Virus record (IMG/VR): IMGVR_UViG_3300008050_008918
Location: 1-51,725 of that record
Reading direction: 5' to 3' (one strand)
DNA: 51,725 nucleotides
Origin: a virus
This document shows positions 4,428-23,098 of the stretch, one piece after another. Numbering within the stretch: the first letter of the stretch is position 1; each line of letters opens with the position of its first letter. The position numbers and the translations under genes were made by a program. Below the pieces are notes generated by a model. The model worked only from the letters and a program-made list of their open reading frames with translations, did no database searches and was not told the origin of the DNA.

Positions 4428-5702
4428 GTGAGAAAAATCAAAGTATTGACAATCTCTGACCACCCTCTGTCACCTTCGGGTGTGGGTACTCAGACTAAAT
4501 ATGTCATCGAGGCGCTGCTAAAGTCTGGCAAATTTGAAGTTGTCAGTTTAGGCGGCGCAATCAAACATCCGGATCACCGTCCACAAAAGACGGAACAGTA
4601 TGGCGATCTGTGGAAGATCTATCCAGTCGATGGCTATGGCACTCCCGATGCTGTGCGCTCAGTGTTGCGCACCGAGCGACCGGATATTCTGTGGTTCATG
4701 ACCGACCCGCGGTTCTTCCCGTGGCTGTGGATGATCGAGCAGGAAGTTCGACCACTAGTTCCAATGGTTTATTACCATGTCTGGGACAACACTCCGTATC
4801 CAATGTTTAACAAGCGATACTATGATTCAAACGACAAGATCGTTACCATCTCAAAGGTTACTGATGATATTGTACGAAATGTTGCTCCGGATGTTGAGTG
4901 TGAGTATCTGCCGCATGCTGTTGACGCGTCAATCTTCGCTCCAATGGCACAAGACGCCATGCTCGCATTTAAGAACTCATTCTTTCGCGTTCCCGAGGGC
5001 GAAGAGGACACGAAGGTTACCTTTTTCTGGAACAACCGCAATGCTCGTCGTAAACAGACGGGCAGTTTGCTTTGGTGGTTTAAGGAATTCCTAGATGATG
5101 TTGGGCACGATAATGCCCGCATAGTAATGCATACAGATCCCCGGGATCAGCACGGGCAAGATATTATTGCTATCATGGAGCAAACTGGTCTCACTGAAGG
5201 GCAGGTTCTTCTTTCTACGATGAAGATTCCGCCGGAAAAGTTGGCGCAGATGTATAACATTGCCGACTGTACCGTTAATATCAGCGATGCCGAGGGCTTC
5301 GGTCTGGCAACGTTAGAGTCGCTTTCTTGTGGCACCCCCATCATCGTCAACATGACCGGTGGTCTTCAAGAGCAGGTTACCGATGGAACGAACTGGTTTG
5401 GCATCGGGATTGAGCCCTCATCGAAAGCTGTTATCGGTTCTCAAGAGGTGCCATATATTTATGAAGACCGAATCAGCAAGGACGATTTTATTAATGCCTT
5501 GAAGAAGATTTATGAGATGTCTTCTGCTGAACGCTCAAAGATTGGGCTAGCCGGCAGAGACTACGCATTGAAAAACTATAATTTTCAAGGGTTTAACGAT
5601 CGCTGGGTTGCCTTGTTAGAACAGGTTTATGAAGAGCACGGCTCTTGGAACCACCCAGAAGGTCGAAAGAATTACAAAGGATGGGAGCATGTTGAGCTAT
5701 GA
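4428..5702 (+). CDS. GT4-type glycosyltransferase
   Basis: This 424-residue protein starts at GTG 4428 after GAGGAAA. It has a GT-B fold layout. The N-terminal half opens with KIKVLTISDHPLSPSGVGTQ, where the glycine-rich loop contacts the nucleotide sugar. The C-terminal half has IADCTVNISDAEGFGLATLE, giving the E-x7-E pair at about E289/E297 typical of retaining GT4 enzymes, then GTPIIVNMTGGLQEQV. It has no membrane segment and should be cytosolic. It is the first gene of the glycan block and overlaps the next gene in an ATGA. The sugar donor and acceptor cannot be read from the sequence. Confidence 0.9.
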   Translation: MRKIKVLTISDHPLSPSGVGTQTKYVIEALLKSGKFEVVSLGGAIKHPDHRPQKTEQYGDLWKIYPVDGYGTPDAVRSVLRTERPDILWFMTDPRFFPWLWMIEQEVRPLVPMVYYHVWDNTPYPMFNKRYYDSNDKIVTISKVTDDIVRNVAPDVECEYLPHAVDASIFAPMAQDAMLAFKNSFFRVPEGEEDTKVTFFWNNRNARRKQTGSLLWWFKEFLDDVGHDNARIVMHTDPRDQHGQDIIAIMEQTGLTEGQVLLSTMKIPPEKLAQMYNIADCTVNISDAEGFGLATLESLSCGTPIIVNMTGGLQEQVTDGTNWFGIGIEPSSKAVIGSQEVPYIYEDRISKDDFINALKKIYEMSSAERSKIGLAGRDYALKNYNFQGFNDRWVALLEQVYEEHGSWNHPEGRKNYKGWEHVEL

Positions 5703-6979
5703 GTGACAATCGCCAAAAGGTTATCGTAATCGGTCCCGCACTTACCTTGTCGGGCTATGGAGAGCAGACGCGATTTGCCCTCAGAGCTTTACGTTCACAG
5801 GAAGACCAATACGACATTTATCTACACACGACCAGTTGGGGACAAACCGGCTGGATTCATGATGATAACGAAGAAAGAGAGTGGATTGATAACGCTCTCC
5901 ATAAGACAGTAAAGTATAATCAGCAAGGCGGTCAGTATGATATGTCGCTGCAGATTACTATCCCGAACGAGTGGAAGAAGGTTGCACCGATTAATGTCGG
6001 CTACACTGCTGGCATTGAAACCACAGCCGTAGCTCCACAGTGGATTGAGAAGTCTCGCGAGATGGATCGTATCATTGTTGTTTCCAATCACTCGAAAGAG
6101 GTCTTCGAAAATACGAAATATGGCATTATGGATCAGCAGACAAAGCAGCAGACAGGTGTGGCACAAGTCGAAATCCCCATCATTGCGATAAACTATCCGG
6201 TCAAGGATATCGAACCGGTTGATTTGGGCTTGGAACTAAGCACAGATTTTAACTTTGTGTGTGTAGCTCAGTGGGGTCCGCGCAAGAATGTACAGAACAC
6301 GCTGAACTGGTTTATCCAAGAATTTCATGATGACGAAGATGTTGGTTTGGTGTTGAAGGTCTTCCACATGAATACCTCAAATATGGATCGCGTCTTTGTC
6401 CTGAAGCAGCTAGCCGGTATGTTGGAGGAATATCCCGATCGCAAGTGCAAGATTCACCTGCTTCATGGGCATATGTCAGAGCAAGAGCTTCACAGTCTCT
6501 ACCTGCATCCCAAGATTAAGGGGCTGCTGACTCTGACCCACGGCGAAGGCTTCGGGCTTCCAATCTTCGAAGCGGCATATAGCGGCTTGCCTGTTATTGC
6601 TCCAGCATGGAGTGGGCAAGTAGATTTCCTATCAGCCCCGAGCAGCAGCAAGAAAAGCAACAAGATGCGCCCACACTTTCTTAGGGTCGACTATAACATG
6701 GTTGATGTTCCTGATGAAACGGTGTGGGAAGGCGTAATCCAGAAAGGCTCTCAGTGGTGTGACCCGCAGGAGAAGAGCGCCAAGAAGCAGATGCGGGATC
6801 TTTATAACAACCACAGTCGCCACTTGGGGCAGGCGTCTAGACTCAAGAAGCATCTTCTCAAAACCTTTACGCCCGAAAAACTGTATACAGATTTCTGCGC
6901 AGCATTCGCTAGCGAACAGAATATAGACATCGACGCATGGCTTACAGAGCTTGAGGCTGGCGTTGAAGAACACGAATAA
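5699..6979 (+). CDS. GT4-type glycosyltransferase
   Basis: This 426-residue GT-B enzyme begins VIVIGPALTLSGYGEQTRFA, the same N-terminal glycine loop style as its neighbour. The family signature near the C-terminal third is THGEGFGLPIFEAAYSGLPV, with the E-x7-E pair at about E283/E291, followed by IAPAWSGQVDF. The middle has WGPRKNVQNTLNWF, where Rossmann half 2 begins. The last 90 residues are charged and helical. The start ATG overlaps the previous stop by four bases, so the two transferases are probably translated together and may act in succession. Donor and acceptor are unknown. Confidence 0.9.
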   Translation: MSDNRQKVIVIGPALTLSGYGEQTRFALRALRSQEDQYDIYLHTTSWGQTGWIHDDNEEREWIDNALHKTVKYNQQGGQYDMSLQITIPNEWKKVAPINVGYTAGIETTAVAPQWIEKSREMDRIIVVSNHSKEVFENTKYGIMDQQTKQQTGVAQVEIPIIAINYPVKDIEPVDLGLELSTDFNFVCVAQWGPRKNVQNTLNWFIQEFHDDEDVGLVLKVFHMNTSNMDRVFVLKQLAGMLEEYPDRKCKIHLLHGHMSEQELHSLYLHPKIKGLLTLTHGEGFGLPIFEAAYSGLPVIAPAWSGQVDFLSAPSSSKKSNKMRPHFLRVDYNMVDVPDETVWEGVIQKGSQWCDPQEKSAKKQMRDLYNNHSRHLGQASRLKKHLLKTFTPEKLYTDFCAAFASEQNIDIDAWLTELEAGVEEHE

Positions 6980-7229
6980 CAAATACAACGTTGGGCAGTT
7001 TGTTCGATGGTATGAGGCTTATGCTGAAGGCTTCTTGGGAAGAGATGCTGGCTTTGGAGTTATAACCGAAGTTCGCATCCACCATATCTATACCGATCAC
7101 ATTTCATATGCTGTCCTGCGAAATAAGCATGGCGATGTTATGTGGTTTGAAGAAGGACACGTAGAGTCCAACGAAGAGTTTAAGGAAAGGATGAATGAGC
7201 AAAAAGCCAACAATAGCGTTTGTAGCTGA
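6963..7229 (+). CDS. small phage protein, SH3-like
   Basis: This is an 88-residue protein read from TTG 6963, chosen because GAGG lies six bases upstream; TTG 6951 in the same frame would add four residues. It overlaps the preceding glycosyltransferase by 17 bases. It contains VGQFVRWYEAYAEGF, GFGVITEVR, SYAVLRNKHGDVMWFEEGHVE: a V-G opening, a G-x-G-V-I strand and an aromatic/acidic end. This is the layout of small SH3/KOW-like barrels, also seen at 226-414. The function is unknown. It is the only small non-enzyme inside this part of the glycan block. Confidence 0.7.
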   Translation: MKNTNNKYNVGQFVRWYEAYAEGFLGRDAGFGVITEVRIHHIYTDHISYAVLRNKHGDVMWFEEGHVESNEEFKERMNEQKANNSVCS

Positions 7230-8046
7230 TTACTTCGCTGACGAGATCCCCGGCGGTGGGGAAGTTAACAACGACGAACTTATTAAACTTCTCCAAAATG
7301 ATTATCACGTCATGAAGGTCAAGAGCCGGAACTTAGATCCTGCCATAATCGCGAACAACTTGGTGGATTTCTTTATTGTTTCCAACTTCTTAGAGCTTTC
7401 TTACCAGAGCTACACCTACTTGCTGGAAAGGGCAAACTACATCATCTATGAGCATGATCATAAATATGTAAAGAGCAGAAACCCGGCGCAATATGAGGAT
7501 TATAAAGCTCCCCAGTCGGATATCGTTAATTATGATTTTTACAAGAACGCAAAAGCGGTCTTATGCCAGTCAGAATTCCACGCCGGCATTGTCCGAAAGA
7601 ATTTAAACTTAGATACGATTAAGAGTTTGGGTGGCAACCTGTGGTCTGAAGAAAGCTTAGACCTTATGAGTACCTTGGCATGTCAAGAGAAAGCAGATGT
7701 GTGCGCCATCATGCAAACGGACAACTGGCACAAGAATACCGCCGGCGCTGTGAGATATTGTAGAGCAAAGCAAATCAAATATGCGCTCATCGCCCCCGCC
7801 GCGTATCATGAATTTTTAACAAACCTATCAGCCTGTAAGAGATTGATATTTTTCCCACAGACTCCCGAGACACTTTCTAGGATTGCAGTCGAGGCGCGCA
7901 TGATGGGAATGGCTGTTCTTACAAATCAAAATATCGGCGCCACCAAAGAGCCATGGTTTTCCCTCAAAGGCGAAGAACTGATTAACTTGATGCGCGCTAA
8001 GAGAGAGGAAATCTCACAAACAGTTAAGGAGATAATGAATGGGTAA
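7195..8046 (+). CDS. short GT-B glycosyltransferase-like protein
   Basis: This 283-residue protein starts at ATG 7195 after AAGGAAAGG. It opens TIAFVADYFADEIPGGGEV, a glycosyltransferase-like N terminus with a GGGE loop. Near the C terminus it has FFPQTPETLSRIAVEARMMG, giving the GT4 E-x7-E pair at E225/E233, followed by AVLTNQNIGA. It is much shorter than usual GT4 enzymes (about 350-420 residues), mainly in the linker and end helices. It may be a compact transferase or a non-catalytic partner. It overlaps the previous gene by 35 bases and the next by 8. Glycosyltransferase relationship is likely; activity is less sure. Confidence 0.78.
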   Translation: MSKKPTIAFVADYFADEIPGGGEVNNDELIKLLQNDYHVMKVKSRNLDPAIIANNLVDFFIVSNFLELSYQSYTYLLERANYIIYEHDHKYVKSRNPAQYEDYKAPQSDIVNYDFYKNAKAVLCQSEFHAGIVRKNLNLDTIKSLGGNLWSEESLDLMSTLACQEKADVCAIMQTDNWHKNTAGAVRYCRAKQIKYALIAPAAYHEFLTNLSACKRLIFFPQTPETLSRIAVEARMMGMAVLTNQNIGATKEPWFSLKGEELINLMRAKREEISQTVKEIMNG

Positions 8047-9487
8047 CCACTTCAAGATCGTTATCCCGTTTTACAATGTAGAAAAGTGGATTAAGATTTG
8101 CCTTCGTTCTGTGAAGGCACAGACATATGACAACTTTCAATGTATTTTGTTGGATGACATGTCAACAGACGGCACTGCCGAAATTGTACGCGAGGAAATC
8201 GGAGACGATCCTCGCTTTATCTTTGTGCAGTGTCAAGAGAAGGCATACGCTCTCAAAAACATTTATGATGGTATTAAGCTTTCCGAACCAGATGCCGAAG
8301 ACATCATTGTAACTCTTGACGGTGATGATTGGCTGTCCCGCAAAGACGTCTTACACACTTTGAATCAGATATACCAAAACGCTGATTGTCGAATGACTTA
8401 TGGAAGCTACGCCGAATACCCCGGCGGCAAGAAAGGAAAGTTTGCTAAACAGATCCCTCCGACATGGATTCAGCAGAGTATATTACGACGAGCGCCATGG
8501 CAAGCTTCCCACTTGCGTACGTTTAAACACGACCTTTGGCGCCGTATTGATGTAAAGGATCTGCAAGACACAGATGGCAACTTTTACAGAATGGCATGGG
8601 ACTTGGCTTTCATGTTCCCGATGCTGGAAATGGCAGGTCCGAAGAGCCACTATGTCTCAGAACCTCTGTACGTTTATAATGTGGCAAACCCACTGAACGA
8701 CCACAAGATTGACAACGAACTTCAAATCCGCACAGAGGCGGAGATCCGCCAAAAGCCCCCGTACGCTACGCTATCGCCGACCGAAGGCACGTATCCTTCG
8801 ACATGCATTATCTCACCCGAGAAGCGTTTTGTATACACATTTATACCCAAGGTCGCTTGCAGTAGTCTCAAGATGGCTCTTGCTTCTCAGTTCGGGGTCA
8901 ACGTTGACATTAGTGCTGAAGCCCGGCAGGACGTCTTTAGTGACCTGCAATCGTTCGAAGCAATGCATGCTGCCAACTGGCCAATTGCGCCGAAACATGC
9001 GATGCTAACTGCACAATCGTGGGATTATCTAAAGTTTGCCATAGTTCGCAATCCATGGGATCGCCTCGTCTCTTGCTATAAAAATAAGATTCTGGCTTCT
9101 GGGGACACAAACGACTTCTATGAAAACGGTGTTCACCGAATGCTGGTAAAGAATTATGGAGACTTGTTTTTCTCCGATATGACCTTCGAACAGTTTGCCG
9201 AAGCAGTCTGTATGATCCCTGATAAATTCGCAGAAGACCATTTCCGCTCACAGCATACTTTTATCAGCCACCGCGGTAAGGTGTTCGTAGATCACATCGG
9301 CAAGCTTGAGAACATTGAGAGGGAGTGGGAATATCTTTGTGCGAATATCAACATCAAGAATGAGCTTCAAAACATTAACGTTTCCTCGAACTCCGCTTCC
9401 TACAAAGATTACTATACTGATGATCTCCGAGATCGGGTAGCGATAAGATACAGTAAAGACATCGAGTTACTTGACTATGAATACTAA
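8039..9487 (+). CDS. fused GT2 glycosyltransferase and sulfotransferase
   Basis: This 482-residue protein joins two enzymes. Residues 1 to about 240 are a GT2 (GT-A fold) glycosyltransferase: FKIVIPFYNVEKWI, LLDDMSTDGT, and the metal-binding DGDDW at D94-D97. Residues about 260-480 are a PAPS-dependent carbohydrate sulfotransferase of the HNK-1/Sulfotransfer_2 type. FIPKVACSSLK is the 5'-phosphosulfate loop and FAIVRNPWDRLVSCYKNK is the 3'-phosphate-binding motif near residue 333. The fusion suggests that one sugar is added and that it, or a nearby sugar, is then sulfated. The enzyme would need PAPS from the host; no PAPS-making gene is visible here. It overlaps the neighbouring genes at both ends. 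Confidence 0.9.
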   Translation: MGNHFKIVIPFYNVEKWIKICLRSVKAQTYDNFQCILLDDMSTDGTAEIVREEIGDDPRFIFVQCQEKAYALKNIYDGIKLSEPDAEDIIVTLDGDDWLSRKDVLHTLNQIYQNADCRMTYGSYAEYPGGKKGKFAKQIPPTWIQQSILRRAPWQASHLRTFKHDLWRRIDVKDLQDTDGNFYRMAWDLAFMFPMLEMAGPKSHYVSEPLYVYNVANPLNDHKIDNELQIRTEAEIRQKPPYATLSPTEGTYPSTCIISPEKRFVYTFIPKVACSSLKMALASQFGVNVDISAEARQDVFSDLQSFEAMHAANWPIAPKHAMLTAQSWDYLKFAIVRNPWDRLVSCYKNKILASGDTNDFYENGVHRMLVKNYGDLFFSDMTFEQFAEAVCMIPDKFAEDHFRSQHTFISHRGKVFVDHIGKLENIEREWEYLCANINIKNELQNINVSSNSASYKDYYTDDLRDRVAIRYSKDIELLDYEY

Positions 9488-10211
9488 GTGGTTGTTTATT
9501 CACATCCCCAAGACCGGCGGCACATTTTTTAAAAATGCAGTAATCGATGCCGGCATATTGAGCGGAACCCGGCAGATTCAAAATGAGGCGCATTCCTTTC
9601 CTTATCGCTTTAAGGTGAATATGTGGGATCCATCAAGTACGTTTTATGTGCGGAACCCTGACCTAAAACAACTTTGGTACCACAGGCAGTACTCACCGAA
9701 GTACATACGAGAGAAGGACTATATAGATTACGTTACGATCGTAAGAAACCCATTTGACTTATTTCACTCTTATTGGAGCGCAGCAGGGTGTTCTCCGTCA
9801 CATAAATACGGCGCTCTTCCGGAGAATCCTGTTGGTTGGGCAAACTGCAATCACATAATGCAGACAGCCACTTTCCACGATTTTGTAGAACATTATCTTG
9901 ATCCAGAGAAAGACTGGCATATTCCGCCTTTTAAAAGAAACTTATTTGCACAGATATACACGAAGCAGGGAAAGCTAATACCGAATATGGGAAATATATT
10001 AAGGTTTGAGAATCTTGAACATGATATGGAGGCGTGGTGCAGGCGCAATAACATCAAATGTGTTTCTGGCGATGCCTTGTCCTATGTCAACAAGAACGCT
10101 AACCCGAACCGCGTCAGCTATAAAGACGAATATACAACGCTGCAGATTTATAAGCTTGAGCAGTTGTGGGAAGAACAGCTAAAAACATTTAACTATAAAC
10201 ACAGTGATTAA
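9477..10211 (+). CDS. sulfotransferase family protein
   Basis: This 244-residue protein starts at ATG 9477 (MNTKWLFIHIPKTGG); an in-frame TTG at 9471 is less likely. FIHIPKTGGTFF is the 5'-phosphosulfate-binding loop and VTIVRNPFDLFHSYW near residue 87 is the 3'-phosphate-binding motif. These place it in the carbohydrate sulfotransferase superfamily that uses PAPS. It has no membrane anchor, unlike Golgi relatives. It directly follows a GT2-sulfotransferase fusion with an 11-base overlap, so two different positions of the glycan could be sulfated. The acceptor is unknown. Confidence 0.88.
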   Translation: MNTKWLFIHIPKTGGTFFKNAVIDAGILSGTRQIQNEAHSFPYRFKVNMWDPSSTFYVRNPDLKQLWYHRQYSPKYIREKDYIDYVTIVRNPFDLFHSYWSAAGCSPSHKYGALPENPVGWANCNHIMQTATFHDFVEHYLDPEKDWHIPPFKRNLFAQIYTKQGKLIPNMGNILRFENLEHDMEAWCRRNNIKCVSGDALSYVNKNANPNRVSYKDEYTTLQIYKLEQLWEEQLKTFNYKHSD

Positions 10212-10213
10212 TC

Positions 10214-11128
10214 ATGAGTTTTAAAATTTACTTTATGCCATCTCGCGGCATGGATAATATGAGCCAGAACGAGCTTTTTGATCGCGCCCGCATGCAGACC
10301 CCGGGGAACAAGGGGGTCTGGAAAGACATGTCGGCAACCACAGATATTAATGATGCAGATTATTACATAATCTTAGAAGCAACTGACTCCGCCACGCCCG
10401 ACCCGACTCGGACGCTCTATTTCAGCCGAGAGCCCCGAGGCGTAGGCTTGGGGATGGGACCGATGGATCCTCGAATCCGTCATTTTTCGTTTCTGACCGG
10501 TGATTCATATTTTTCAACTTTCTGGTATTGTGAGAGAGCAGGGTATACAAAAACTTATGATGAACTAATTAGACTGAAGCCGCAAGAGAAATCTAAAGGC
10601 ATGTCCTGCACCGTATCCGAAAAGACGTGGCTCCCGGGAATGCGCGACAGAGTGGAATTTGTAAAAGCTTTCCAGAAATCTCACGGCAATAAGTTTGACC
10701 TCTTTGGTCGCATCAGAAGATTACCCGAATTAACAGATTTTGTACTTGAAATTGAAGACGATGACAAGTATAATACACTAGAGACCTATAAATATTGCTT
10801 GGCATTCGACAATGGAACTTACCCAAATTATTTCGCAACACAGTTCACAGATACATTACTATCTTGGACTTTGCCTGTTTACAATGTTGCACCCGGAATC
10901 TCAAACACTCATGAGTTCTTTCCTGAAGGGTCATATATTCCCTTCGATGCTCGCGACCACAACGAAATCGAGCGCATCGTGAATCTGATTGAGAACGACA
11001 GCTTTGAAGATCACATTCCGGCTATGACTGAAGCCCGAGATTTGATCTTGAACAAATATAATCTATGGAACACAATCTATGAAGCGGTTACAACCGGTAA
11101 AAATACATGGTATGGAAATGAAGGATAG
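10214..11128 (+). CDS. GT10 (alpha-1,3-fucosyltransferase)-like glycosyltransferase
   Basis: This 304-residue protein has the donor-binding end of GT10 enzymes. After TLYFSREPRGVG comes the core YKYCLAFDNGTYPNYFATQF and then TDTLLSWTLPVYN (residues about 195-224), followed by FFPEGSYIPFDARD. GT10 members typically show Y-K-F-x-L-A-F-E-N, then a short loop, then a TEK-like motif and VPVV. Here ATQF stands where the TEK motif usually is, so donor contacts may differ. GT10 enzymes use GDP-fucose. This window makes GDP-4-keto-6-deoxymannose (gmd) and probably GDP-perosamine, so the donor could be another GDP-6-deoxy sugar; that is inference. It is likely soluble and cytosolic. Confidence 0.82.
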   Translation: MSFKIYFMPSRGMDNMSQNELFDRARMQTPGNKGVWKDMSATTDINDADYYIILEATDSATPDPTRTLYFSREPRGVGLGMGPMDPRIRHFSFLTGDSYFSTFWYCERAGYTKTYDELIRLKPQEKSKGMSCTVSEKTWLPGMRDRVEFVKAFQKSHGNKFDLFGRIRRLPELTDFVLEIEDDDKYNTLETYKYCLAFDNGTYPNYFATQFTDTLLSWTLPVYNVAPGISNTHEFFPEGSYIPFDARDHNEIERIVNLIENDSFEDHIPAMTEARDLILNKYNLWNTIYEAVTTGKNTWYGNEG

Positions 11129-11936
11129 GACTGAAAAAAGCGGATGCCTGCTGTGTGGTTACAAACGCCACAAGGTGATCCACAAGTTTAAGTCTCTGCC
11201 AGCATCCCGCCGCGGCAAACAGAAGCTTGATATCGTAAAATGTTCAAACCGAGAGTGCGGGCTTGTTGCCTCACACCCCCCTGTGCCCAATGACCATTGG
11301 GCTGACAAGTACGCAGGAGATTATTGGAGAGACTACCAAACCAGCATTGGTGAACGTCGCATTGACGAGCGCTTTGAAGAGTTTGAAATGATCTCCGCGG
11401 AACGCATTCGGTATCTGGAGAGCTTCTATCGACTGCTTCCACCCGGGCTGCGTTTTAAACCCACCGGTCGCTTTCTGGATGTCGGCTGTTCGATGGGGTT
11501 CTTGGTGAAAGCCGCTGAGCAAGCCGGATTTAAGAACGCATATGGCATTGACCCGAACCAGCAAGACATTGATGAGGGCAGAGAGAGGTATGGAGTTTCC
11601 ATAGAGAAGCGCGCCATCGAGAAATACGGCGAAAACTCATTCGACGTCATCATGTGCTTTAACACTATCGAGCATGTCCCTCGCCCAGAACTGCTGGTGG
11701 AAGAGATGGTAAAAAGATTAGCTCCGAAGGGCTGTCTTGTACTTGGTACTCACGACATCGAGTGTGAAAACTATATTAATGAAGGCGTAAAGTGGAAACA
11801 CATTAAGCCCGCTGAGCATTTATATTACTTCAGCAAAGACACTCTGTCTCAACTATGCGAAAGGTATGGGCTGCGAGCCTTCTGGAACGCGAAACCCATT
11901 GAGAATTCCATCGTAACATATTTTATTAGAGGTTGA
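11112..11936 (+). CDS. SAM-dependent methyltransferase with N-terminal zinc ribbon
   Basis: This is read from ATG 11112 as 274 residues; ATG 11118 is equally possible, and an upstream ATG at 11079 would overlap the previous gene further. The N terminus has CLLCG and then CSNREC, a four-cysteine zinc-binding set seen in sugar C-methyltransferase-like and related proteins. The SAM pocket is RFLDVGCSMGFLVKAAEQ (near residue 120), followed by YGIDPN and the post-II motif FDVIMCFNTIEHV. The class I fold is clear. In this context it probably methylates a sugar or a glycan substituent, but the substrate cannot be read. The gene lies 1 base before the next one. Confidence 0.85.
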   Translation: MEMKDRTEKSGCLLCGYKRHKVIHKFKSLPASRRGKQKLDIVKCSNRECGLVASHPPVPNDHWADKYAGDYWRDYQTSIGERRIDERFEEFEMISAERIRYLESFYRLLPPGLRFKPTGRFLDVGCSMGFLVKAAEQAGFKNAYGIDPNQQDIDEGRERYGVSIEKRAIEKYGENSFDVIMCFNTIEHVPRPELLVEEMVKRLAPKGCLVLGTHDIECENYINEGVKWKHIKPAEHLYYFSKDTLSQLCERYGLRAFWNAKPIENSIVTYFIRG

Positions 11937-11980
11937 CATGTCAAATGATTTAAACGTATACGTTTTTACATCAAATGATT
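11933..11980 (+). repeat. 10-bp direct repeats flanking a 14-bp palindrome, next to a 12-bp palindrome
   Basis: The stop/start junction is a perfect palindrome TTGACATGTCAA (11933-11944). It is followed by TCAAATGATT at 11941-11950 and again at 11971-11980, exactly 30 bases apart (about three helix turns). Between the copies lies a perfect 14-base palindrome AAACGTATACGTTT (11952-11965). The array covers the first codons of the gene at 11938. It looks like a protein-binding or RNA-fold site, but it could be chance in an AT-rich start region. Confidence 0.6.
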
Positions 11981-12705
11981 ACTTACATATCTTAAGACCA
12001 TTCAGTTTCTTGTTAAACAAGTTTTGGTCTCCCAACCAAAAGGTTATAATCGTAGGATTCGAGCATCCTGAGTTCGACCTCCCTTCAAACTATGAGTTTG
12101 TCTCATTGGGAGAACAGCGCGGTCTCAAATACTGGACAAACGATCACATCGATTATTTCCAAGGCATTGAGGATCAGTATTTTGTACACATGTTGGAAAA
12201 TGAGTTCTTTCTGAGACCATTCGAAACTCAGATTTACGACGATTTGGTTAGCCGCCTTCACCCGAAGATTGGTCGAGTTGATTTGACGCCCGGTCCATCT
12301 CAGCGGAGCAATAATTTGCTTGAAAATCGCGGAGAGTATGATATAATCGAGTTAACACAAGATGCTAGCTATCGGCTTGCTTTGCGATTCAACATCTGGA
12401 ATAAGGATTACCTTATGAAATATCTTATCCCGAACGAGGATTGCTGGGAGTACGAGGTCAAGGGCATTGAGCGCTCCAAGAACGACGGCTACCAAATTAT
12501 GGCTACAGACCGAAAGTATGTTATGCATATTATGGACGGTGTTGCTATGACCGGCGGCAAGCGCCCAAACATTTTAGATTTACGCGCCCGTATCCATCCG
12601 GAGCGGAGTTCATTTCAGCTTCCTTTAGACGAGGCTACCATCGAAGAAATGATGGATTGCAATATCATTGTTTCGAAAGGTCAATATCATGAGGTAATCC
12701 TGTGA
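11938..12705 (+). CDS. glycosyltransferase-like protein of unfamiliar family
   Basis: This 255-residue protein starts at ATG 11938, one base after the previous stop. It opens LNVYVFTSNDYLHILRPF and continues KVIIVGFEHPEF, a pattern of alternating strands like the start of a GT-A domain. Later YFVHMLENEFFLRPFE contains an acidic motif where a metal-binding DxD would be expected. I cannot assign a CAZy family. The first codons hold an unusual repeat/palindrome array (separate entry). Its position between enzymes of the glycan block supports a role there. Confidence in the gene is high; in the function it is low. Confidence 0.75.
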   Translation: MSNDLNVYVFTSNDYLHILRPFSFLLNKFWSPNQKVIIVGFEHPEFDLPSNYEFVSLGEQRGLKYWTNDHIDYFQGIEDQYFVHMLENEFFLRPFETQIYDDLVSRLHPKIGRVDLTPGPSQRSNNLLENRGEYDIIELTQDASYRLALRFNIWNKDYLMKYLIPNEDCWEYEVKGIERSKNDGYQIMATDRKYVMHIMDGVAMTGGKRPNILDLRARIHPERSSFQLPLDEATIEEMMDCNIIVSKGQYHEVIL

Positions 12706-13598
12706 GAATTTGCTATTTCAACACTCACGCAACGCTTGGAGAGAAGCATGCTGACATTTGCTTCAACTCCTTGGCAGAGCAAAGTGTCGATTACAAGTTC
12801 GATGTGATGTACATCTACAACACTCATCCTCAAACCCTCTCTAACGAGAAGCTACTCGCTCTTATCACCAAATACAGGCTTCGACACCACTTTGATAAGA
12901 TCGAGATTCTGCCCAAGAGCGACGGAAAGACTCTTGGGCAGGATATGCTTTATCTAACTTCGCATTGTAGTGAAGTCAAGCCGGAGCGTGTATTAATGCT
13001 CAAGTCTGATTATGGCATTTCTGTTAACTTCATGAGAGCCATGGACGCCATTGACTCGGTTACCGACTCTAACACTCGTTTCATCTTCACTCCGCCAACT
13101 GCGAACGCAAAGGAATATGTAGAAAAGCCCGAGATTATGGAATATCTACAGCGCCCGGAGTTTGTTCCCGCAGATGATATCACTTTTTATTTTGGTAGTG
13201 ATTACGCAGATTCCCTAGGTACCGCGGAACACTCTGTAAGGGTCTTGGCAGATATCTGGCACGGTGACCCGGAGGCGCTTGGCAAGGCACTAAGGGGAGA
13301 TTTTACTACACCAACAGATCCGAGGGCACGTTTTGTATCACACACGGTTAGATCAGATTTCAATTGTCATTATATGGATGGCGACACATTCGGCAACCTT
13401 AGCTTCGAAGGTTCTGACCCGAATCGAACGTGGAATCTTAGCTTCTGGGGAATCCAAGCAGCCCAGCGTCATCAAGGAATCCCCTTTATCGACGCCCACG
13501 GAGCCTTCGTTGCACACATCTTCCACTCAATCGTCGGACCAAACAGGAAAGACCAAAGAGAAGACGAAAACAAAACAGTTTCAGGACAAAGGTATTAA
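12702..13598 (+). CDS. glycosyltransferase-like protein of unfamiliar family
   Basis: This 298-residue protein starts at GTG 12702, overlapping the previous stop in a GTGA. The N terminus (RICYFNTHATLG, then FDVMYIYNTHPQTL) and the segment RVLMLKSDYGIS resemble a GT-A nucleotide-binding core, with SDYG in the place of a DxD motif. The C-terminal 25 residues are very polar and probably disordered. I do not recognise the family. Its place between two glycan-block genes and its coupled start suggest that it works with the product of 11938-12705. Function is inference. Confidence 0.7.
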   Translation: MRICYFNTHATLGEKHADICFNSLAEQSVDYKFDVMYIYNTHPQTLSNEKLLALITKYRLRHHFDKIEILPKSDGKTLGQDMLYLTSHCSEVKPERVLMLKSDYGISVNFMRAMDAIDSVTDSNTRFIFTPPTANAKEYVEKPEIMEYLQRPEFVPADDITFYFGSDYADSLGTAEHSVRVLADIWHGDPEALGKALRGDFTTPTDPRARFVSHTVRSDFNCHYMDGDTFGNLSFEGSDPNRTWNLSFWGIQAAQRHQGIPFIDAHGAFVAHIFHSIVGPNRKDQREDENKTVSGQRY

Positions 13599-13608
13599 GG
13601 AGAATACA

Positions 13609-13953
13609 ATGCAAGAAACAGATTTATACACACGGGTTGTTGAGTACTTTGATGCATTTTCATCGATGGATTTAGACCGCTTGGAGGCACTTTACTCTTC
13701 CAACGTTTATCTTCGTGATTGGGATGGCACATGGGTTGGCTCTCATGCGGTCCTGCGAGCGAATAAGGAGATCTTCGATAACGTCTCAGCAATAGTCATC
13801 CGCCCTATCGCCCTGCATTTTGATGCTGATGCTCGCACCTGTGCAGCAGAGATTGAAATCATGGCAGAAGGGCAAGAGAACCTTGTTGTCGTTGACATTA
13901 TTGAGTTTAGCGCCGGCGGATACATCACATCTGTTCGAGCATACAGGGGATAG
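13609..13953 (+). CDS. SnoaL/NTF2-like small protein
   Basis: This 114-residue protein starts at ATG 13609 after a strong TAAGGAGAA site; a longer frame from 13333 is unlikely because it lies inside the previous gene. The sequence LYTRVVEYFDAFSSMDLDRL, then YSSNVYLRDWDG and VVVDIIEFSAGGYITSVRAY is the typical SnoaL-like layout: one long helix, then a curved sheet ending in a strand that closes the cone. The family includes small isomerases, hydrolases and non-enzymatic binding proteins. Here it could act on a sugar intermediate, but no substrate is visible. Confidence 0.8.
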   Translation: MQETDLYTRVVEYFDAFSSMDLDRLEALYSSNVYLRDWDGTWVGSHAVLRANKEIFDNVSAIVIRPIALHFDADARTCAAEIEIMAEGQENLVVVDIIEFSAGGYITSVRAYRG

Positions 13954-13955
13954 AA

Positions 13956-14867
13956 ATGTACAACAACATCATTGCAACAGCGTTTAACAACTCCGGCGAG
14001 TACTTCATTTCCGGCAGAACTATGATAGAGCATATTTTGTGCTTCTCTGACGATGTTGTCGATCAGATTATTGTTTTTAATCTTGGTCTGACAGATGAAG
14101 AAAAAGAAATCATTAACGAGTATCCGAAGACTCAAGTGGTTGAATTTCCGGAAGAGCCTTACGAGGGCTACACTGATTGTATGACTGACGAACAAACCAG
14201 TCAAAGCCGCAATCATGTGTGGAAATGTGGAGCAGTCCGTCACGCTCAGGAATATGGAAAGAACATCCTTTGGGTCGACTCTGGCATTGCTCCGTTTACT
14301 AACGTCGGAAAAGTCTTTGAGGTCATCGCCCGAGATGGGCTGTTCTTTTCTTCAGATCAGCGATGGAGGAATGATCATCGTACCAGCGCCAACTATCACA
14401 AGGGCGTGGGGCTGACAGAAGAAGAAGCTGGGAAGTTTCAAGTATTTGCAGCCGTCCTTGGCTGGCAAGCCACTGGTCCTTACCAGCAAGTCATCGAGGA
14501 TATTTATAAAGTATCTCTTGACGCTGACGTTATCCAAAACCCAATGATGGAACAGGGGCTCAACGAGCAATCATTGTGGGGTCTGATGGCAAACAGAGCC
14601 GGCTATGAACTACAGGTAAATGATGTGTGGGACAATGATAACAGCTTGGGCAAATCTTCCCGCGGCTGGGGTCTTGGCATGCCGGATCAAATGCGCATTT
14701 ACCGCGACAGGGACAACAGTATTCTTATGCGAGTCTGGCGTAATGATGGCTTCTATGGCTCCCGGTACCGTGATAAATTAACCAGAATAATGTCGCTTGG
14801 TCCCACCAACGCCATCCTTTTATATAACAAGATTATTCAGAACACTGCTCCGGAGAAATACCGTTGA
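13956..14867 (+). CDS. glycosyltransferase-like protein (DUF1647-like appearance)
   Basis: This 303-residue protein has an N terminus IIATAFNNSGEYFISGRTMI, then IIVFNLGLTDEEKEII and, after WKCGAVRHAQEYGKNI, the motif LWVDSGIAPF. Strand, helix and an acidic D-S-G in the metal position are typical of a group of GT-A-like proteins (GT8/DUF1647-like) that is poorly studied. Further on, MMEQGLNEQSLWGLMANR resembles the acceptor-side loop. I infer a glycosyltransferase. It starts two bases after the previous gene and overlaps the next in a TTGA. Family recognition is from memory of sequence style, not a search. Confidence 0.72.
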   Translation: MYNNIIATAFNNSGEYFISGRTMIEHILCFSDDVVDQIIVFNLGLTDEEKEIINEYPKTQVVEFPEEPYEGYTDCMTDEQTSQSRNHVWKCGAVRHAQEYGKNILWVDSGIAPFTNVGKVFEVIARDGLFFSSDQRWRNDHRTSANYHKGVGLTEEEAGKFQVFAAVLGWQATGPYQQVIEDIYKVSLDADVIQNPMMEQGLNEQSLWGLMANRAGYELQVNDVWDNDNSLGKSSRGWGLGMPDQMRIYRDRDNSILMRVWRNDGFYGSRYRDKLTRIMSLGPTNAILLYNKIIQNTAPEKYR

Positions 14868-15577
14868 GTCACCTGTTCTCGATTACGTGCAAATACGATC
14901 CGAACAATCCGGTAGTGCTCTCCTGTGTTGAGAGCATCCGAAAGCACCACCCCAACTCGCCTATCCATGTAGTTGACAGCGGCTCTGAAGATAAGTCTTA
15001 TTATGAGCGGGTTGAATCACTGGGCGCCACGGTTCAAGACATTAATAACAACAGCCTTACAACTGGAAACATTTGGTACACTTATGAGAAATATCCTGAT
15101 TACGATTATTATTATTTTCTTCATGATTCTATGTTGATCAAAGACGGTCTTCTAGATCTTCTGGATCGGGACGTCGTGGCTTTACGCTATTTTCGTTCGT
15201 GGAATGGAATTGGCTGGACTCCTGCAGAGGTGCCAACCGGAGAAAATGGGTTTGTATATGAAGAAACATACAACTGGGCGAATACGCAACTTCTATCAAA
15301 GACTACTTATCGTCCAGAACTCTCGCACAAGTTTGCTGCTCTTTTTGGTCCAATGTTAATGTGTAAGCGCAGCGTGCTGGATAAACTCAAGGCTGCTGGC
15401 TTTGATAAGATTCGCCCAACAACCAAACGACAATCCGAAGCAATGGAACGCGTTTGGGGAATGGTTTTAAATATGGAAGGCTATGATTTGTCAGAGCTAT
15501 CCATTCAGGGATACTGCTATGATCCCGGTTATCAAGAAACTCATAGACTTGAGAAAATATTTTTAGGAAGACAATAA
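14864..15577 (+). CDS. GT2-like glycosyltransferase
   Basis: This 237-residue protein starts at TTG 14864, overlapping the previous stop in a TTGA; there is no better start nearby. It opens SHLFSITCKYDPNNPVVLSC and continues PIHVVDSGSEDKSYYERVES, a GT2-like core strand and helix. FLHDSMLIKDGLLDLL carries an H-D-S motif in the usual metal position. It is shorter than most GT2 enzymes. A weak start codon and overlap suggest translation depends on the upstream gene. Donor and acceptor are unknown; transferase activity is probable. Confidence 0.75.
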   Translation: MSHLFSITCKYDPNNPVVLSCVESIRKHHPNSPIHVVDSGSEDKSYYERVESLGATVQDINNNSLTTGNIWYTYEKYPDYDYYYFLHDSMLIKDGLLDLLDRDVVALRYFRSWNGIGWTPAEVPTGENGFVYEETYNWANTQLLSKTTYRPELSHKFAALFGPMLMCKRSVLDKLKAAGFDKIRPTTKRQSEAMERVWGMVLNMEGYDLSELSIQGYCYDPGYQETHRLEKIFLGRQ

Positions 15578-16965
15578 TGGTAGATAATAGTGAAATCTTA
15601 GTCATCTTTGATTTAGATGGCGTCCTCGTTGATGCTCGCGAGCTTCATTACGAGGCTTTGAACAGAGCTTTGGCTTCAGTGGACGGAAAGTACATTGTGA
15701 ATCGTGCTGAGCACCTGTCGACATACGACGGACTGCCCACATCGAAGAAGCTGAACATGCTCACAAAGAATAAAGGCTTGCCGAAGGAGTTACACAATAC
15801 CGTGTGGCAGCGCAAGCAAGAAATGACTTACAAGATCATCTCTGAGGAGATGGAGTATGACACACGCATGCGCGATGTGCTTAAACGCCTTCGCGAAGAC
15901 GGCTATCGGATTTGCTGCGCATCGAACTCTATCAGAGAGTCGGTCAAGATGATGCTTCTGAAGAAGGGGCTCTTGGAATATATTGAGTTTATTTATTCCA
16001 ATCAAGATGTCAAGGCTCCAAAACCTAGTCCCGAGATGTATCTCAAATGTATGATTAAGGCTGGCATTGGTCCCAAGTCCACCCTTATCGTGGAGGATTC
16101 TCATATCGGACGCAAGGCAGCGTTAAGCTCCGGAGCATCTCTGTGTGCCGTTCGCAATCCTGATGACGTAACCTATGAAAAGGTCAAGGGCGCCATCGAA
16201 CACAACTTTAAATCTCAAAAAATTATTACACCATGGCAAGGAGGCAAAATGAACGTATTAATTCCAATGGCGGGTGCCGGAAGTCGATTTGAAAAGGCAG
16301 GGTACACTTTCCCGAAGCCGCTTATCGATGTCAACGGCAAGCCCATGATTCAACTGGTGACGGAGAACCTTAACATTGAGGCTCGTCACATTTATATTGT
16401 ACAGAAGTCTCATTATGAGAAGTATAACCTGCAGCAATTATTAAACCTCATCTCACCAGACTGTGTGATTGTACAGGTAGATGGTATCACTGAAGGTGCG
16501 GCATGCACTACGCTGTTAGCCAAGGAGTTCATTAATAACGATGAGCCTCTGGTCATCTCAAACTCCGATCAGGTTTTCGAGTGGGACAGCAACGAGTTTA
16601 TGTACTCTATGGTAGCCGACGAGGTTGATGGCGGCATCCTCACGTTTGAGGCAACTCATCCCAAGTGGAGCTTCGCGAAACTTGGAGAGGACGGCTTTGT
16701 CACAGAAGTTGCAGAGAAGAATCCCATTAGTAATATCGCGACAGCGGGAGTTTACTATTTCCGCAAGGGTTCTGATTATGTCAAGTACGCTGAGCAGATG
16801 ATTGAACGTGATGTCCGAACTAATAACGAGTTTTATGTTTGTCCGGTATACAATCAGGCATGCGAAGACAGCCAGAAGATTAAGGTTTTCCACATTGACA
16901 GAATGTGGGGTCTCGGCACCCCCGAAGACTTGAATCATTATTTAGCGCACCACCCGAGGAAATAA
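15577..16965 (+). CDS. HAD phosphatase fused to a sugar nucleotidyltransferase
   Basis: This 462-residue protein has two domains. Residues 1 to about 215 are a HAD hydrolase of the beta-phosphoglucomutase-like group: FDLDGVLVDA (nucleophile and acid D), CCASNS, KPSPEMY and IVEDSHIGRKAA. Residues 225-462 are a nucleotidyltransferase of the glucose-1-phosphate thymidylyltransferase superfamily: MNVLIPMAGAGSRF, PKPLIDVNGKPM, VISNSDQVF and the late DRMWGLGTPEDL. The pair could remove one phosphate from a sugar and activate the sugar-1-phosphate with a nucleotide. The nucleotide and sugar cannot be told. A strong ribosome site lies exactly at the domain boundary (separate entry), so the second domain may also be made alone. 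Confidence 0.9.
   Translation: MVDNSEILVIFDLDGVLVDARELHYEALNRALASVDGKYIVNRAEHLSTYDGLPTSKKLNMLTKNKGLPKELHNTVWQRKQEMTYKIISEEMEYDTRMRDVLKRLREDGYRICCASNSIRESVKMMLLKKGLLEYIEFIYSNQDVKAPKPSPEMYLKCMIKAGIGPKSTLIVEDSHIGRKAALSSGASLCAVRNPDDVTYEKVKGAIEHNFKSQKIITPWQGGKMNVLIPMAGAGSRFEKAGYTFPKPLIDVNGKPMIQLVTENLNIEARHIYIVQKSHYEKYNLQQLLNLISPDCVIVQVDGITEGAACTTLLAKEFINNDEPLVISNSDQVFEWDSNEFMYSMVADEVDGGILTFEATHPKWSFAKLGEDGFVTEVAEKNPISNIATAGVYYFRKGSDYVKYAEQMIERDVRTNNEFYVCPVYNQACEDSQKIKVFHIDRMWGLGTPEDLNHYLAHHPRK
16238..16251 (+). promoter_or_regulatory. internal Shine-Dalgarno and ATG at the HAD/nucleotidyltransferase boundary
   Basis: AAGGAGG (16238-16244) is followed after four bases by ATG 16249, in frame with the fused gene and exactly at the first residue of the nucleotidyltransferase domain (MNVLIPMAGAG). 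Starting here would give a free 238-residue nucleotidyltransferase ending at 16965. This is one of the strongest ribosome sites in the window. Confidence 0.7.
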
Positions 16966-19494: not shown

Positions 19495-19955
19495 TTTACA
19501 TAGCTCACAGAGGCAACACAGCCGGTCCTAAGCCCGAACTGGAGAATAGCCCCGCCTATATCGACAAAGCCCTGTCAGAAGGCTTCTGCGCCGAAATAGA
19601 CGTTAGAAAGGGCAATATGCTCGACGAGTTCATTATGGGTCACGACTATGGGGAATATAAATTGCCCGTTGAATGGTTCGAAGAGCGCCGAGAACATTTG
19701 TATATCCATGCCAAAGACTTAGCGACATATACCTATTTTGTTAGCTCCCCGGGCTGGACAGTGTTCTGGCACCAAAGCGACGATTACACATTAACAAGCT
19801 CTGGGCACATCTGGGCTTACCCGGGTCAACCATTAAATGAAAAAACAATTTGTGTTATGCCCGAAAGTGTGTTATATTCTAAACAAGACTTAGAGAAATG
19901 CGCGGGTATATGTAGTGACCATGTGCAATCATATAAGCAGGAGTATGGAGCATGA
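19491..19955 (+). CDS. GDPD-like phosphodiesterase domain protein
   Basis: This 154-residue protein starts at ATG 19491, overlapping the previous stop by four bases. It has the catalytic set of glycerophosphodiester phosphodiesterases in order: H6-R7-G8 (AHRGN), E18-N19, E35-x-D37 (AEIDVR) and H51-D52 (MGHDYG). It is only about 60% of the length of common GDPD enzymes (about 240 residues), so the TIM barrel is reduced in its second half. It could cleave a phosphodiester or handle a glycerophosphate substituent on the glycan; that is inference. Activity is plausible because all motif residues remain. Confidence 0.78.
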   Translation: MIYIAHRGNTAGPKPELENSPAYIDKALSEGFCAEIDVRKGNMLDEFIMGHDYGEYKLPVEWFEERREHLYIHAKDLATYTYFVSSPGWTVFWHQSDDYTLTSSGHIWAYPGQPLNEKTICVMPESVLYSKQDLEKCAGICSDHVQSYKQEYGA

Positions 19956-21064
19956 AAGTTCCACAGTTCATGCCGTACATCGGTATGGAAGAGTACGAGG
20001 CGATTCGAAGCTGTTTTGAAGATAACTGGATTACAGAAGGTCCAAAAGCAGCAGAATTTAGCGAAAAGTTATTAGACTTGATTGGAAGCAAGTACGGAGT
20101 CTTTGCACCTAACGGCACTCTGTCTCTATATCTTGCTTTACGAGCTATGGGGATCGGTCCCGGCGATGAAGTCATAGTACCAGACTTCACTTTTATTGCT
20201 TCCGCCAACGCTGTTGAAATGGTTGGTGCCCGCCCTGTATTTGTAGACATAAATAAACACGATCTTCAGATTAACTTAGAAGATTGCGAGCGCGTGAGAA
20301 CTGAGAAGACAAAAGCAATCATGCCAGTTCACCTCTATGGCTTTGCTGTGGATATGACGGCTCTCACGGCGTACGCGAAAGAACACGACCTGCTGATCAT
20401 AGAAGACGCCGCGCAAGCTCTCGGAATCTCATGGGCTGGCAAAGGCTGTGGAAGTTTCGGCACTACAGGCTCTTTCTCGTTTTTCGCAGACAAGACTCTC
20501 ACTACTTGCGAGGGAGGGTTTGTGACAACCAACAATGAAAAGATTTATAACAAGCTGCTTTACTTGAGAAACCAAGGGCGCCTCCACCGCGGCACTTTCC
20601 AACACCCAGAGATCGGCTACAACTTTCGAATAAATGATATTCAGGCAGCAATTGGTTTATCCCAACTCAAGAAGTTGCCTGAGATTATTGAGAAGAAGCA
20701 AAAGAATTATAACCTTTATAAAGAAGCATTAGCCGACGTGGAACAAATAGAGCTTCTATCGCCGCAACCCGAAGTTGAACCATATATCCCTTTTCGTGTT
20801 ATTTTACGCACTCTTGAACAGAAAAGCAACTATTTAATGACCTTCCTATCTATAAACGATGTGGAGCCTAGGACATTCTTTTATCCGCTTCACCTGCAGC
20901 CGTGTTTTGGTCTGTGGACTGCCGATGAACGACATGATCCTAAACATTTTAAAACGACAGAGGACACATACAATCATGGCGTGTGTCTGCCATCGTTTGC
21001 AGCACTCACAGAAGATCAGATTATGTATGTCTGCGAAACAATAAAGGAATTTTACAGGAGATAA
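19952..21064 (+). CDS. DegT/DnrJ/EryC1-type sugar aminotransferase (perosamine synthase-like)
   Basis: This 370-residue PLP enzyme has the family layout: PYIGMEEYEAI and DNWITEGP near the N terminus, PNGTLSLYLALRAM, IIEDAAQALG (the aspartate that contacts the PLP ring), and SFFADKTLTTCEGG, with K181 as the Schiff-base lysine. WITEGP and the F-S-F-F-x-x-K-T-x-T-T-x-E-G-G string match GDP-perosamine synthases well. The expected reaction is transamination of GDP-4-keto-6-deoxymannose, using glutamate, to GDP-perosamine. The keto substrate is made by gmd three genes downstream. Another nucleotide-keto-sugar cannot be ruled out. The length is normal. Confidence 0.88.
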   Translation: MKVPQFMPYIGMEEYEAIRSCFEDNWITEGPKAAEFSEKLLDLIGSKYGVFAPNGTLSLYLALRAMGIGPGDEVIVPDFTFIASANAVEMVGARPVFVDINKHDLQINLEDCERVRTEKTKAIMPVHLYGFAVDMTALTAYAKEHDLLIIEDAAQALGISWAGKGCGSFGTTGSFSFFADKTLTTCEGGFVTTNNEKIYNKLLYLRNQGRLHRGTFQHPEIGYNFRINDIQAAIGLSQLKKLPEIIEKKQKNYNLYKEALADVEQIELLSPQPEVEPYIPFRVILRTLEQKSNYLMTFLSINDVEPRTFFYPLHLQPCFGLWTADERHDPKHFKTTEDTYNHGVCLPSFAALTEDQIMYVCETIKEFYRR

Positions 21065-21486: not shown

Positions 21487-22130
21487 GAGTAGAGAAATAT
21501 GATGTTGAGAAATATCCATTGCGCGCATTGGTATGCGAGGCGCTGGGTACTGAAGATTTAGAGAATCTTCACGAACACTATAATTATGCACCGTTTACTA
21601 TGGAAAATAATTCCAACACCGTCCTTCATGACCGGTTTTATGATAAGCTGCGTACAGGTTGGCTGGAGTTCCATGGCGCCTATGATCGTTTTATCGAAGA
21701 TATTGTAGTGCCAATCTTTGGTAGCCGCGACTTTATTGTCCAGAAGACGCCCACGTTCCGAGTTCACTTGGTGGGCAACTGGGCAGTGCCAGAATTCCAT
21801 CGCGATTCGCAGCCGGGATACAATCACCCAGAGGGAGAGATCAACTTTCAGATTGCGATAACCGATATGTTCGGCACGAATGCAACATGGTGTGAATCTG
21901 TCCCGGGCTTAGGCGACTTCGCGCCAATGGAAATGAAGCAAGGCGAGTTTACGATCTTTAACGGAAACACATGTGACCACGGAAACATGATTAACGACTC
22001 GGGGCACACCCGCGTCTCATTTGATTTTAGAATTTTACCACTTAAAATATACAACCCATCAACAGCAAAGAATTCTGCTACTCGCGGAACCTCTTTCACT
22101 GTCGGCGGATACTACAAGGAGTTGAGATGA
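21483..22130 (+). CDS. StrG-like Fe(II)/2-oxoglutarate-dependent dioxygenase
   Basis: This 215-residue protein has the iron-binding facial triad: H106-R-D108 in PEFHRDSQPGYNH, and H166 in CDHGNMIND, with R177 (TRVSFDFR) as the likely 2-oxoglutarate contact. The string from FHRDS through GEINFQIAITDMFG to SFDFRILP resembles the StrG-like proteins of the streptomycin cluster and their relatives in polysaccharide clusters. It probably hydroxylates or desaturates a sugar, aminosugar or substituent. The phage location and ATGA overlap with gmd suggest it acts on the glycan made by this block. The substrate is not known. Confidence 0.82.
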   Translation: MRVEKYDVEKYPLRALVCEALGTEDLENLHEHYNYAPFTMENNSNTVLHDRFYDKLRTGWLEFHGAYDRFIEDIVVPIFGSRDFIVQKTPTFRVHLVGNWAVPEFHRDSQPGYNHPEGEINFQIAITDMFGTNATWCESVPGLGDFAPMEMKQGEFTIFNGNTCDHGNMINDSGHTRVSFDFRILPLKIYNPSTAKNSATRGTSFTVGGYYKELR

Positions 22131-23098
22131 GCAAAAAGAAAGCACTAATTACGGGCATCGCCGGACAGGACGGAAGCTATCTGTCCGAGCTTTTACTTGA
22201 GAAGGACTACGAGGTCCACGGGATCATCCGTCGTTCATCTGTCGCAGAGAATCAGGACAGCCGCCTCCGGCACTTGACCGGTCAGATTACGACACATTAC
22301 GGAGATTTATTAGATTACCCGTCGTTGTCAAGAATCATGAAGTCTGTCCAACCCGACGAGATTTACAACTTGGGAGCAATGAGTCACGTAAGGGTGAGCT
22401 ACGATATGCCATCGTTTACTATCCAGACGAACGCCCTCGGCGTCTTGAATATGCTGGAAGTCTATCGCACAACGGTACCCCACTCCGGCTTCTACCAAGC
22501 GAGTTCATCGGAGATGTTCGGAAACTCGGTTGATGCCGATGGAGTACAACGCCTTACGACACCCATGAATCCTGTCAGTCCTTACGGCTGCGCAAAGGTC
22601 ATGGGATACAACTTGGTGCGCCACTACCGGCATGCCTATCAGCTACACGCATGCAACGGGATCCTGTTTAATCATGAGTCCCCACGCCGCGGCACTAACT
22701 TCGTCACCAATAAGGTCGTGAAGACGGCTGTGGAGATCAAGAAGGGGCTCAAAGACAAGCTTGAGCTTGGAAACTTAGATTCGTATCGTGACTGGGGACA
22801 CTCGAAAGATTATGTCCGCGCGATGCACATGATCCTAAATCACCCAACTGCAGAAGAGTTTATTGTTGCAACCGGCGAAACCCACTCTGTAAGGGATCTG
22901 GTAGAAACCGTGTTTGCTAAGTTAGAGCTAAACTATGAGGACTACGTTGTACAGAACCCCAAGTACATGCGACCAGAAGAACTTAAATATCTCAAGGGCG
23001 ACTCATCGAAGTCCCGAGAGATCTTGGGCTGGGAACCCGAATACACTTTCTCATCTATGTTAGATGAGATGATTGAAAGATGGCAAAGAGAACTATAA
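22127..23098 (+). CDS. gmd: GDP-mannose 4,6-dehydratase
   Basis: This 323-residue extended short-chain dehydrogenase starts ALITGIAGQDGSYLSELLLE, the NAD(P) loop in exactly the Gmd form. GIIRRSS binds the cofactor phosphate. The active site is S128-E129 (SSSEMFG) with Y153-x3-K157 (SPYGCAK), and FNHESPRRG and RDWGHSKDYV are Gmd signatures. It turns GDP-D-mannose into GDP-4-keto-6-deoxy-D-mannose, the parent of GDP-fucose, GDP-rhamnose and GDP-perosamine. No GDP-fucose synthase is visible, but a perosamine-synthase-like aminotransferase is. The length is slightly below the usual 345-375. It ends the glycan block; the next gene has its own ribosome site after ten bases. Confidence 0.96.
   Translation: MSKKKALITGIAGQDGSYLSELLLEKDYEVHGIIRRSSVAENQDSRLRHLTGQITTHYGDLLDYPSLSRIMKSVQPDEIYNLGAMSHVRVSYDMPSFTIQTNALGVLNMLEVYRTTVPHSGFYQASSSEMFGNSVDADGVQRLTTPMNPVSPYGCAKVMGYNLVRHYRHAYQLHACNGILFNHESPRRGTNFVTNKVVKTAVEIKKGLKDKLELGNLDSYRDWGHSKDYVRAMHMILNHPTAEEFIVATGETHSVRDLVETVFAKLELNYEDYVVQNPKYMRPEELKYLKGDSSKSREILGWEPEYTFSSMLDEMIERWQREL

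Follow-up and report, generated by a model that had tools for sequence, protein, structure and literature searches.

The gene at 8039-9487 (plus strand) encodes a protein of 482 aa in which a GT2 glycosyltransferase domain (PF00535) is joined to a sulfotransferase domain of the Sulfotransfer_2 family (PF03567). The GT2 is the last member of a conserved block of four glycosyltransferases and a variable cassette begins at its 3' end; as the GT2 closes the block, the fusion sits exactly at the border between the two. The locus marks the point at which conserved glycan genes of phages give way to variable ones, and fusion at this border recurs, with different enzymes. The window, by which we mean the whole analysed stretch of 51,725 bases (IMG/VR record IMGVR_UViG_3300008050_008918), is probably a fragment of a virus genome. 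On the strength of its sister contigs (107-193 kb), which encode a large terminase and a Gp23 major capsid protein of T4 type, the virus reads as an uncultured, bacteria-infecting member of a deep-branching T4-like group. Judged by the terminase, the closest isolate is Flavobacterium phage immuto (45%), followed by Microcystis phage Mel-JY01 (43.5%); judged by the capsid protein, Mel-JY01 is again close, and so is Rhodothermus phage RM378.

Table 1. Features of the fusion gene and of the surrounding glycan locus.
Feature	Position	Strand	Basis
Core GT4 glycosyltransferase 1	4428..5702	+	PF00534 3.6e-13; collinear in related phages
Core GT4-like glycosyltransferase 2	5699..6979	+	weak Glycos_transf_1; collinear in related phages
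Core gene 5' of the fusion, probably a GT-B enzyme	7195..8046	+	inferred from a homologue's weak match
GT2 (GT-A) domain of the fusion, aa 1-245	8039..8773	+	PF00535; DGDDW; structural match
DGDDW, DxD-type metal/nucleotide-sugar motif	8318..8332	+	motif search
First sulfotransferase domain (ST1) of the fusion, aa 246-482 (PF03567 aa 256-480)	8774..9487	+	PF03567, phrog_3347
PKVACSS, 5'-phosphosulfate loop	8846..8866	+	K271 53/53, S276 47/53
His310, candidate catalytic base between the two PAPS loops	8966..8968	+	48/53; role by analogy
VRNPWDRLVS, 3'-phosphate loop	9044..9073	+	R337, N338, P339, S345 53/53
Second sulfotransferase (ST2), 244 aa from ATG 9477	9477..10211	+	PF03567 E 6.1e-8; homologues adjoin the fusion in L002, L003
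11-base overlap ATGAATACTAA, ST2 start within the end of the fusion gene	9477..9487	+	sequence
GT10 (fucosyltransferase-family) enzyme, next cassette gene	10214..11128	+	PF00852 3.7e-9
SAM methyltransferase of the cassette	11079..11936	+	PF13489 2.7e-23
HAD phosphatase-nucleotidyltransferase fusion of the cassette	15577..16965	+	PF13419, PF00483
DegT/DnrJ/EryC1 sugar aminotransferase	19952..21064	+	PF01041 5.8e-108
GDP-mannose 4,6-dehydratase, distal end of the cassette	22127..23098	+	PF16363 1.1e-113

A preliminary description, made without database searches, had proposed a GT-A transferase fused to a HNK-1-type sulfotransferase and followed by a second sulfotransferase, and this was borne out by one match to PF00535, two matches to PF03567 and the motifs in their places (Table 1). 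The GT2 half is assigned by PF00535 over the nucleotide-binding region (aa 7-130, E 6.6e-22, 78.7 bits against a Pfam cut-off of 23.3), by its DxD motif and by a predicted GT-A fold; in DGDDW, D94, D96 and D97 are invariant among 68 relatives, and G95 is kept by 66 of them. An AlphaFold2 model of the fusion, based on an alignment of 63 rows, reached a mean pLDDT of 90.3 and a pTM of 0.65, and confidence drops around aa 241-260, the linker between two confident domains. The two folds expected by the preliminary description are thus both predicted, and in the model the protein consists of two complete domains, the mutual orientation of which is uncertain. The model of the GT half (aa 1-243) matches K4 chondroitin polymerase (2z86; Z 22.8, rmsd 2.3, 221 residues aligned), and further structural matches are heparosan synthase 2 and the WrtF fucosyltransferase; such matches of a predicted fold leave the transferred sugar unfixed.

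The sulfotransferase half is a full-domain match to PF03567, which covers the HNK-1 or carbohydrate sulfotransferase 8-14 type (profile positions 3-251 of 252, E 8.8e-25, 88.7 bits against a cut-off of 22), it falls into phrog_3347 of the PHROGs (E 2.6e-19), and both PAPS loops are kept (PKxxxSS and RNPxxRxVS). Counted over 53 sulfotransferase domains from phages and bacteria, the PAPS-binding residues K271, R337, N338, P339 and S345 are invariant, so that the loss of such residues, which had been named beforehand as an argument against the assignment, is not seen; E424 is invariant as well. His310 is our candidate for the catalytic base, by analogy with the heparan sulfate 2-O- and 6-O-sulfotransferases. 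A PDB sequence search with ST1 alone gave no match, and a profile of the domain aligned its RNP loop weakly with cytosolic sulfotransferases (best E 0.012, which is marginal). ST1 is modelled at high confidence; the list of PDB structural matches was filled by the GT domain, and the structure matches in the viral library that are named sulfotransferases come from Moumouvirus, Fadolivirus and Ralstonia phage phiRSL1. Phage and bacterial rows are mixed in the tree, which gave no clear donor lineage for ST1.

The gene of ST2 was listed as an open reading frame from TTG 9471 (9471-10211, plus strand, 246 aa), and the ATG at 9477 is the better start. PF03567 spans the whole protein (33.5 bits against a cut-off of 22), which is placed in phrog_3347 like ST1, and its motifs PKTGGT (9507-9524) and VRNPFDLFHS (9741-9770) represent both loops, PKTGGT and RNP..S, which are kept in the homologues of the contigs L002 and L003, the only other viral contigs in which ST2-like genes were found. 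In the PDB, neither a sequence search with ST2 alone nor its profile found a credible match, the former giving none at all. Because the start of ST2 overlaps the fusion gene by 11 bases (ATGAATACTAA), the two genes are likely to be translationally coupled. A recent tandem duplication giving rise to ST1 and ST2 is unsupported, as they are 22% identical in the alignment and lie far apart in the tree. ST2 is the most divergent gene of the collinear block, its aa identity being 47% where most of its neighbours have about 75-88%, which hints at a changing specificity or at replacement.

The search for the same fusion in other phages, proposed together with the first reading, found it complete in L002, where the full 482 aa are 79% identical, and in L003 (75%), in both cases with the ST2 homologue directly after it as in the window. 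The genes from PhoH (726) through the HAD/NTP-transferase (15577) are collinear across the three contigs, with a nucleotide identity of about 75% across most of the shared block, from which ST2 mostly falls out of the alignment. Both halves of the fusion keep 72-82% aa identity in the three contigs and synonymous sites are saturated. The conservation of the fusion is not due to chance, since there is homology along the whole gene, synteny is conserved and the amino acids are kept in spite of the saturated synonymous sites. An assembly or frameshift artefact is excluded by the fusion being intact in three contigs of different assemblies. The protein of the HAD phosphatase-nucleotidyltransferase fusion has 96-97% identity in the three contigs, against mostly 75-88% for other genes.

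The layout of core and variable parts is seen in a wider set of related phages (L004-L008, L011, L012, L016 and L017), where the order PhoH, a small gene, the 2513 gene, a PD-(D/E)XK nuclease, two GT4 enzymes, the 7195 gene and the GT2 is largely kept and gene content 3' of the GT2 differs from phage to phage. The partners of the GT2 differ as well. A GT11 (fucosyltransferase) is a separate next gene in 27 loci and is fused to it in three (L006, L007 and L029), and a module of 430 aa is fused in eight loci (L004 at 8736-10028, L008, L020, L025, L030 and L009/L010/L033) and separate in three (L026, L032 and L063). This module matches no Pfam family, and is probably an unknown family of transferases. 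The upstream gene of the 7195 type is fused to the GT2 in four loci (L009, L010, L031 and L033). For the sulfotransferase, three loci have the fused state and none was seen in which it directly follows the GT2 as a gene of its own; all these tallies are of loci and not of events, some contigs being near-copies and the loci therefore not all independent. The GT2-sulfotransferase protein is one state of a recurrent fusion between neighbouring genes.

We think it reasonably probable that the fusion is a bifunctional enzyme with both halves working on one phage-specified glycan, that ST2 sulfates a further position on it, and that a virion protein is its likeliest carrier. The four core glycosyltransferases (4428-8773) would build a shared stem, in which the GT2 half transfers a sugar from a nucleotide-sugar donor to the growing glycan, and the variable cassette, including the fused domain, would decorate it. 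The C-terminal half would sulfate the same glycan, with PAPS made by the host as the donor, and ST2, probably through translational coupling, would act alongside. The GDP-mannose dehydratase, the DegT aminotransferase and the HAD/NTP-transferase could supply the sugar nucleotides, and the GT10 and methyltransferases could tailor the product. The weakest step is the carrier, a virion protein that would be decorated in the cytoplasm. Pfam recognised no flippase, polymerase or initiating lipid-carrier transferase in the cassette of the window, several proteins of which match no family, and only one of its listed genes, an ORF of 90 aa (19222-19494), scores as possibly membrane-spanning. As no export genes were recognised and the enzymes look soluble, a virion protein is the likeliest carrier, and its decoration in the cytoplasm is more likely than a polysaccharide exported by the phage, although use of the host machinery is also compatible.

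As APS kinase was looked for in eight related records and not found, the PAPS has to be supplied by a host able to synthesise it; PAPS reductase was not found in these records either, and the control genomes gave matches. A gene of sulfur metabolism was rejected on the same grounds. That the enzyme is fused to a glycosyltransferase, lies in a glycan cluster and is not accompanied by genes for synthesis or reduction of PAPS argues for the decoration of sugars and against a part in sulfur metabolism.

The preliminary description had suggested a phage-coded sulfated glycan, which is the most reasonable inference from two PAPS-type sulfotransferases in a phage glycan cluster; that the two halves are catalytic, that they share one glycan and that the sulfate ends on it is what we infer. 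It had also taken the fusion to imply that a sugar is added and that this sugar or a neighbour is then sulfated. As the GT2 has varied partners, fused or separate, the fusion by itself is no proof of such an order: the partner pattern supports the same pathway, and not the same sugar, for an enzyme that elsewhere is fused to GT11, to the 430-aa module and to the upstream gene. The link between the GT2 and sulfotransferase activities may, given these partners, be a loose one. That the fusion is a mere joining of adjacent operon genes, with halves that act in different steps or on different molecules, would agree with the separate and fused states of GT11 and of the 430-aa module beside the same GT2, and with the upstream gene being fused in four loci. 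However, each of the three contigs with the GT2-sulfotransferase has it intact, with both halves conserved, and recurrent fusion of the same neighbours would usually mean enzymes of one pathway, so we consider a mere joining rather improbable.

The sulfate could also end up on the host. The enzyme would then remodel a surface glycan of the cell, such as the capsule or LPS, during infection, for instance against superinfection or re-adsorption, with sulfation as part of the change. In marine bacteria, sulfated capsules are produced by means of PAPS and sulfotransferase genes (PMC11766843), and sulfotransferases close to ST1 occur together with an ABC transporter in a capsule-like gene cluster of a bacterium (L257/L258). 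The lack of recognisable genes for export and for the flippase, polymerase and initiating steps in the cassette speaks against it, although a hijacked host export would need none of these, and on the whole we find such remodelling fairly unlikely. Even less probable, and in our view very unlikely, is that the glycosyl- and sulfotransferases modify the bases of the phage DNA. Phage modification based on such enzymes is attributed to Iyer et al. 2013 in a passage of a paper on viral auxiliary genes (PMC10829341), and Flavobacterium phage immuto has DpdA and a QueF-like gene, that is, a 7-deazaguanine DNA system. On the other hand, a gene of the thymidylate synthase family (hydroxymethylase type) was not found in eight related records, and the GDP-sugar pathway and several glycosyltransferases in the cassette of the window would exceed the needs of base glucosylation.

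Returning to the proposed sulfated virion glycan, we tentatively suggest, as a doubtful extension, that in this T4-like group its stem is made by a fixed set of four enzymes, and that its decoration falls to an exchangeable enzyme, which is joined by fusion to the one that completes the stem. If true, the decorating enzyme would be a sulfotransferase in one lineage, a fucosyltransferase in another and the 430-aa enzyme in a third; particles of the sulfotransferase lineage would bear sulfated sugars, and the fast-changing ST2 would vary their pattern.

Sulfotransferases are common in phages. A profile search of the fetched viral loci, some of which overlap, gave 147 matches to sulfotransferase domains, with up to seven in one locus, and phrog_3347 ('Galactose-3-O-sulfotransferase') is a phage family that is already annotated as sulfotransferase and includes both proteins of the window. 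With these, and with glycosyltransferase-sulfotransferase fusions existing in bacteria, two sulfotransferases in one phage cluster are not exceptional, and this point is weaker than the preliminary description had it; what distinguishes ST1 from PF03567 and phrog_3347 in general is that it forms the C-terminal half of a GT2 fusion. In the 193-kb relative L005, GT2 and GT11 are unfused and have four different sulfotransferase genes next to them (9484-15633). A contig of a Bacteroidia MAG (L257/L258, 136-176 kb) has a cluster with seven or more sulfotransferase domains, some of which are fused to glycosyltransferases or to each other; no Gp23 match was found in that genome, which speaks against the contig being a T4-like phage. 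The bacterial fusions are a GT25-sulfotransferase (L086), a GT2/GT92-sulfotransferase of 957 aa and a GT2/GT92 with two sulfotransferase domains of 1131 aa (L258). As in the window, the glycosyltransferase is N-terminal to PF03567 and the gene lies within a glycan cluster, but the GT families are others and an ABC transporter is nearby. Since the GT families differ, the bacterial and phage fusions are probably independent, and a search of 295 genomes of the class of this MAG found no ORF in which the two halves of the phage fusion are matched together.

A viral contig (L197) codes for a protein of 503 aa with the same order of GT2 and sulfotransferase, but from another GT2 family (PF13704) and with a weaker match to PF03567 (E 0.0015). 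Other sulfotransferase fusions are with a methyltransferase (viral contigs L202 and L238) and with a radical SAM domain (Thiomargarita). An animal glycan enzyme described in PMC10864358 is likewise bifunctional and has a PAPS sulfotransferase domain, but its first activity is deacetylation and not the sugar transfer that we propose here. Glycosyltransferases of the mycobacteriophages Che8, Corndog and Myrna glycosylate capsid and tail tube, as cited in PMC12363180, where the passage on them mentions no sulfation, in contrast to the glycan predicted for the window. The cluster of Flavobacterium phage immuto_2-6A has a PD-(D/E)XK nuclease, two glycosyltransferases, a GT2, a sugar aminotransferase and a methyltransferase in the order of the window, but no annotated sulfotransferase. 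Each enzyme is thus of a known kind and fusions of glycosyltransferases and sulfotransferases are known in bacteria, and in the literature searched we found no earlier description of this phage pairing.

Some large genes further along the window are also worth a comment. Two ORFs, of 2869 aa (29936-38545) and 3145 aa (42291-51725, running past the right end), are without a Pfam match, and a protein of 1343 aa (24939-28970) combines an amidase (PF01510) with an M23 peptidase domain and is probably a tail-associated lysin.
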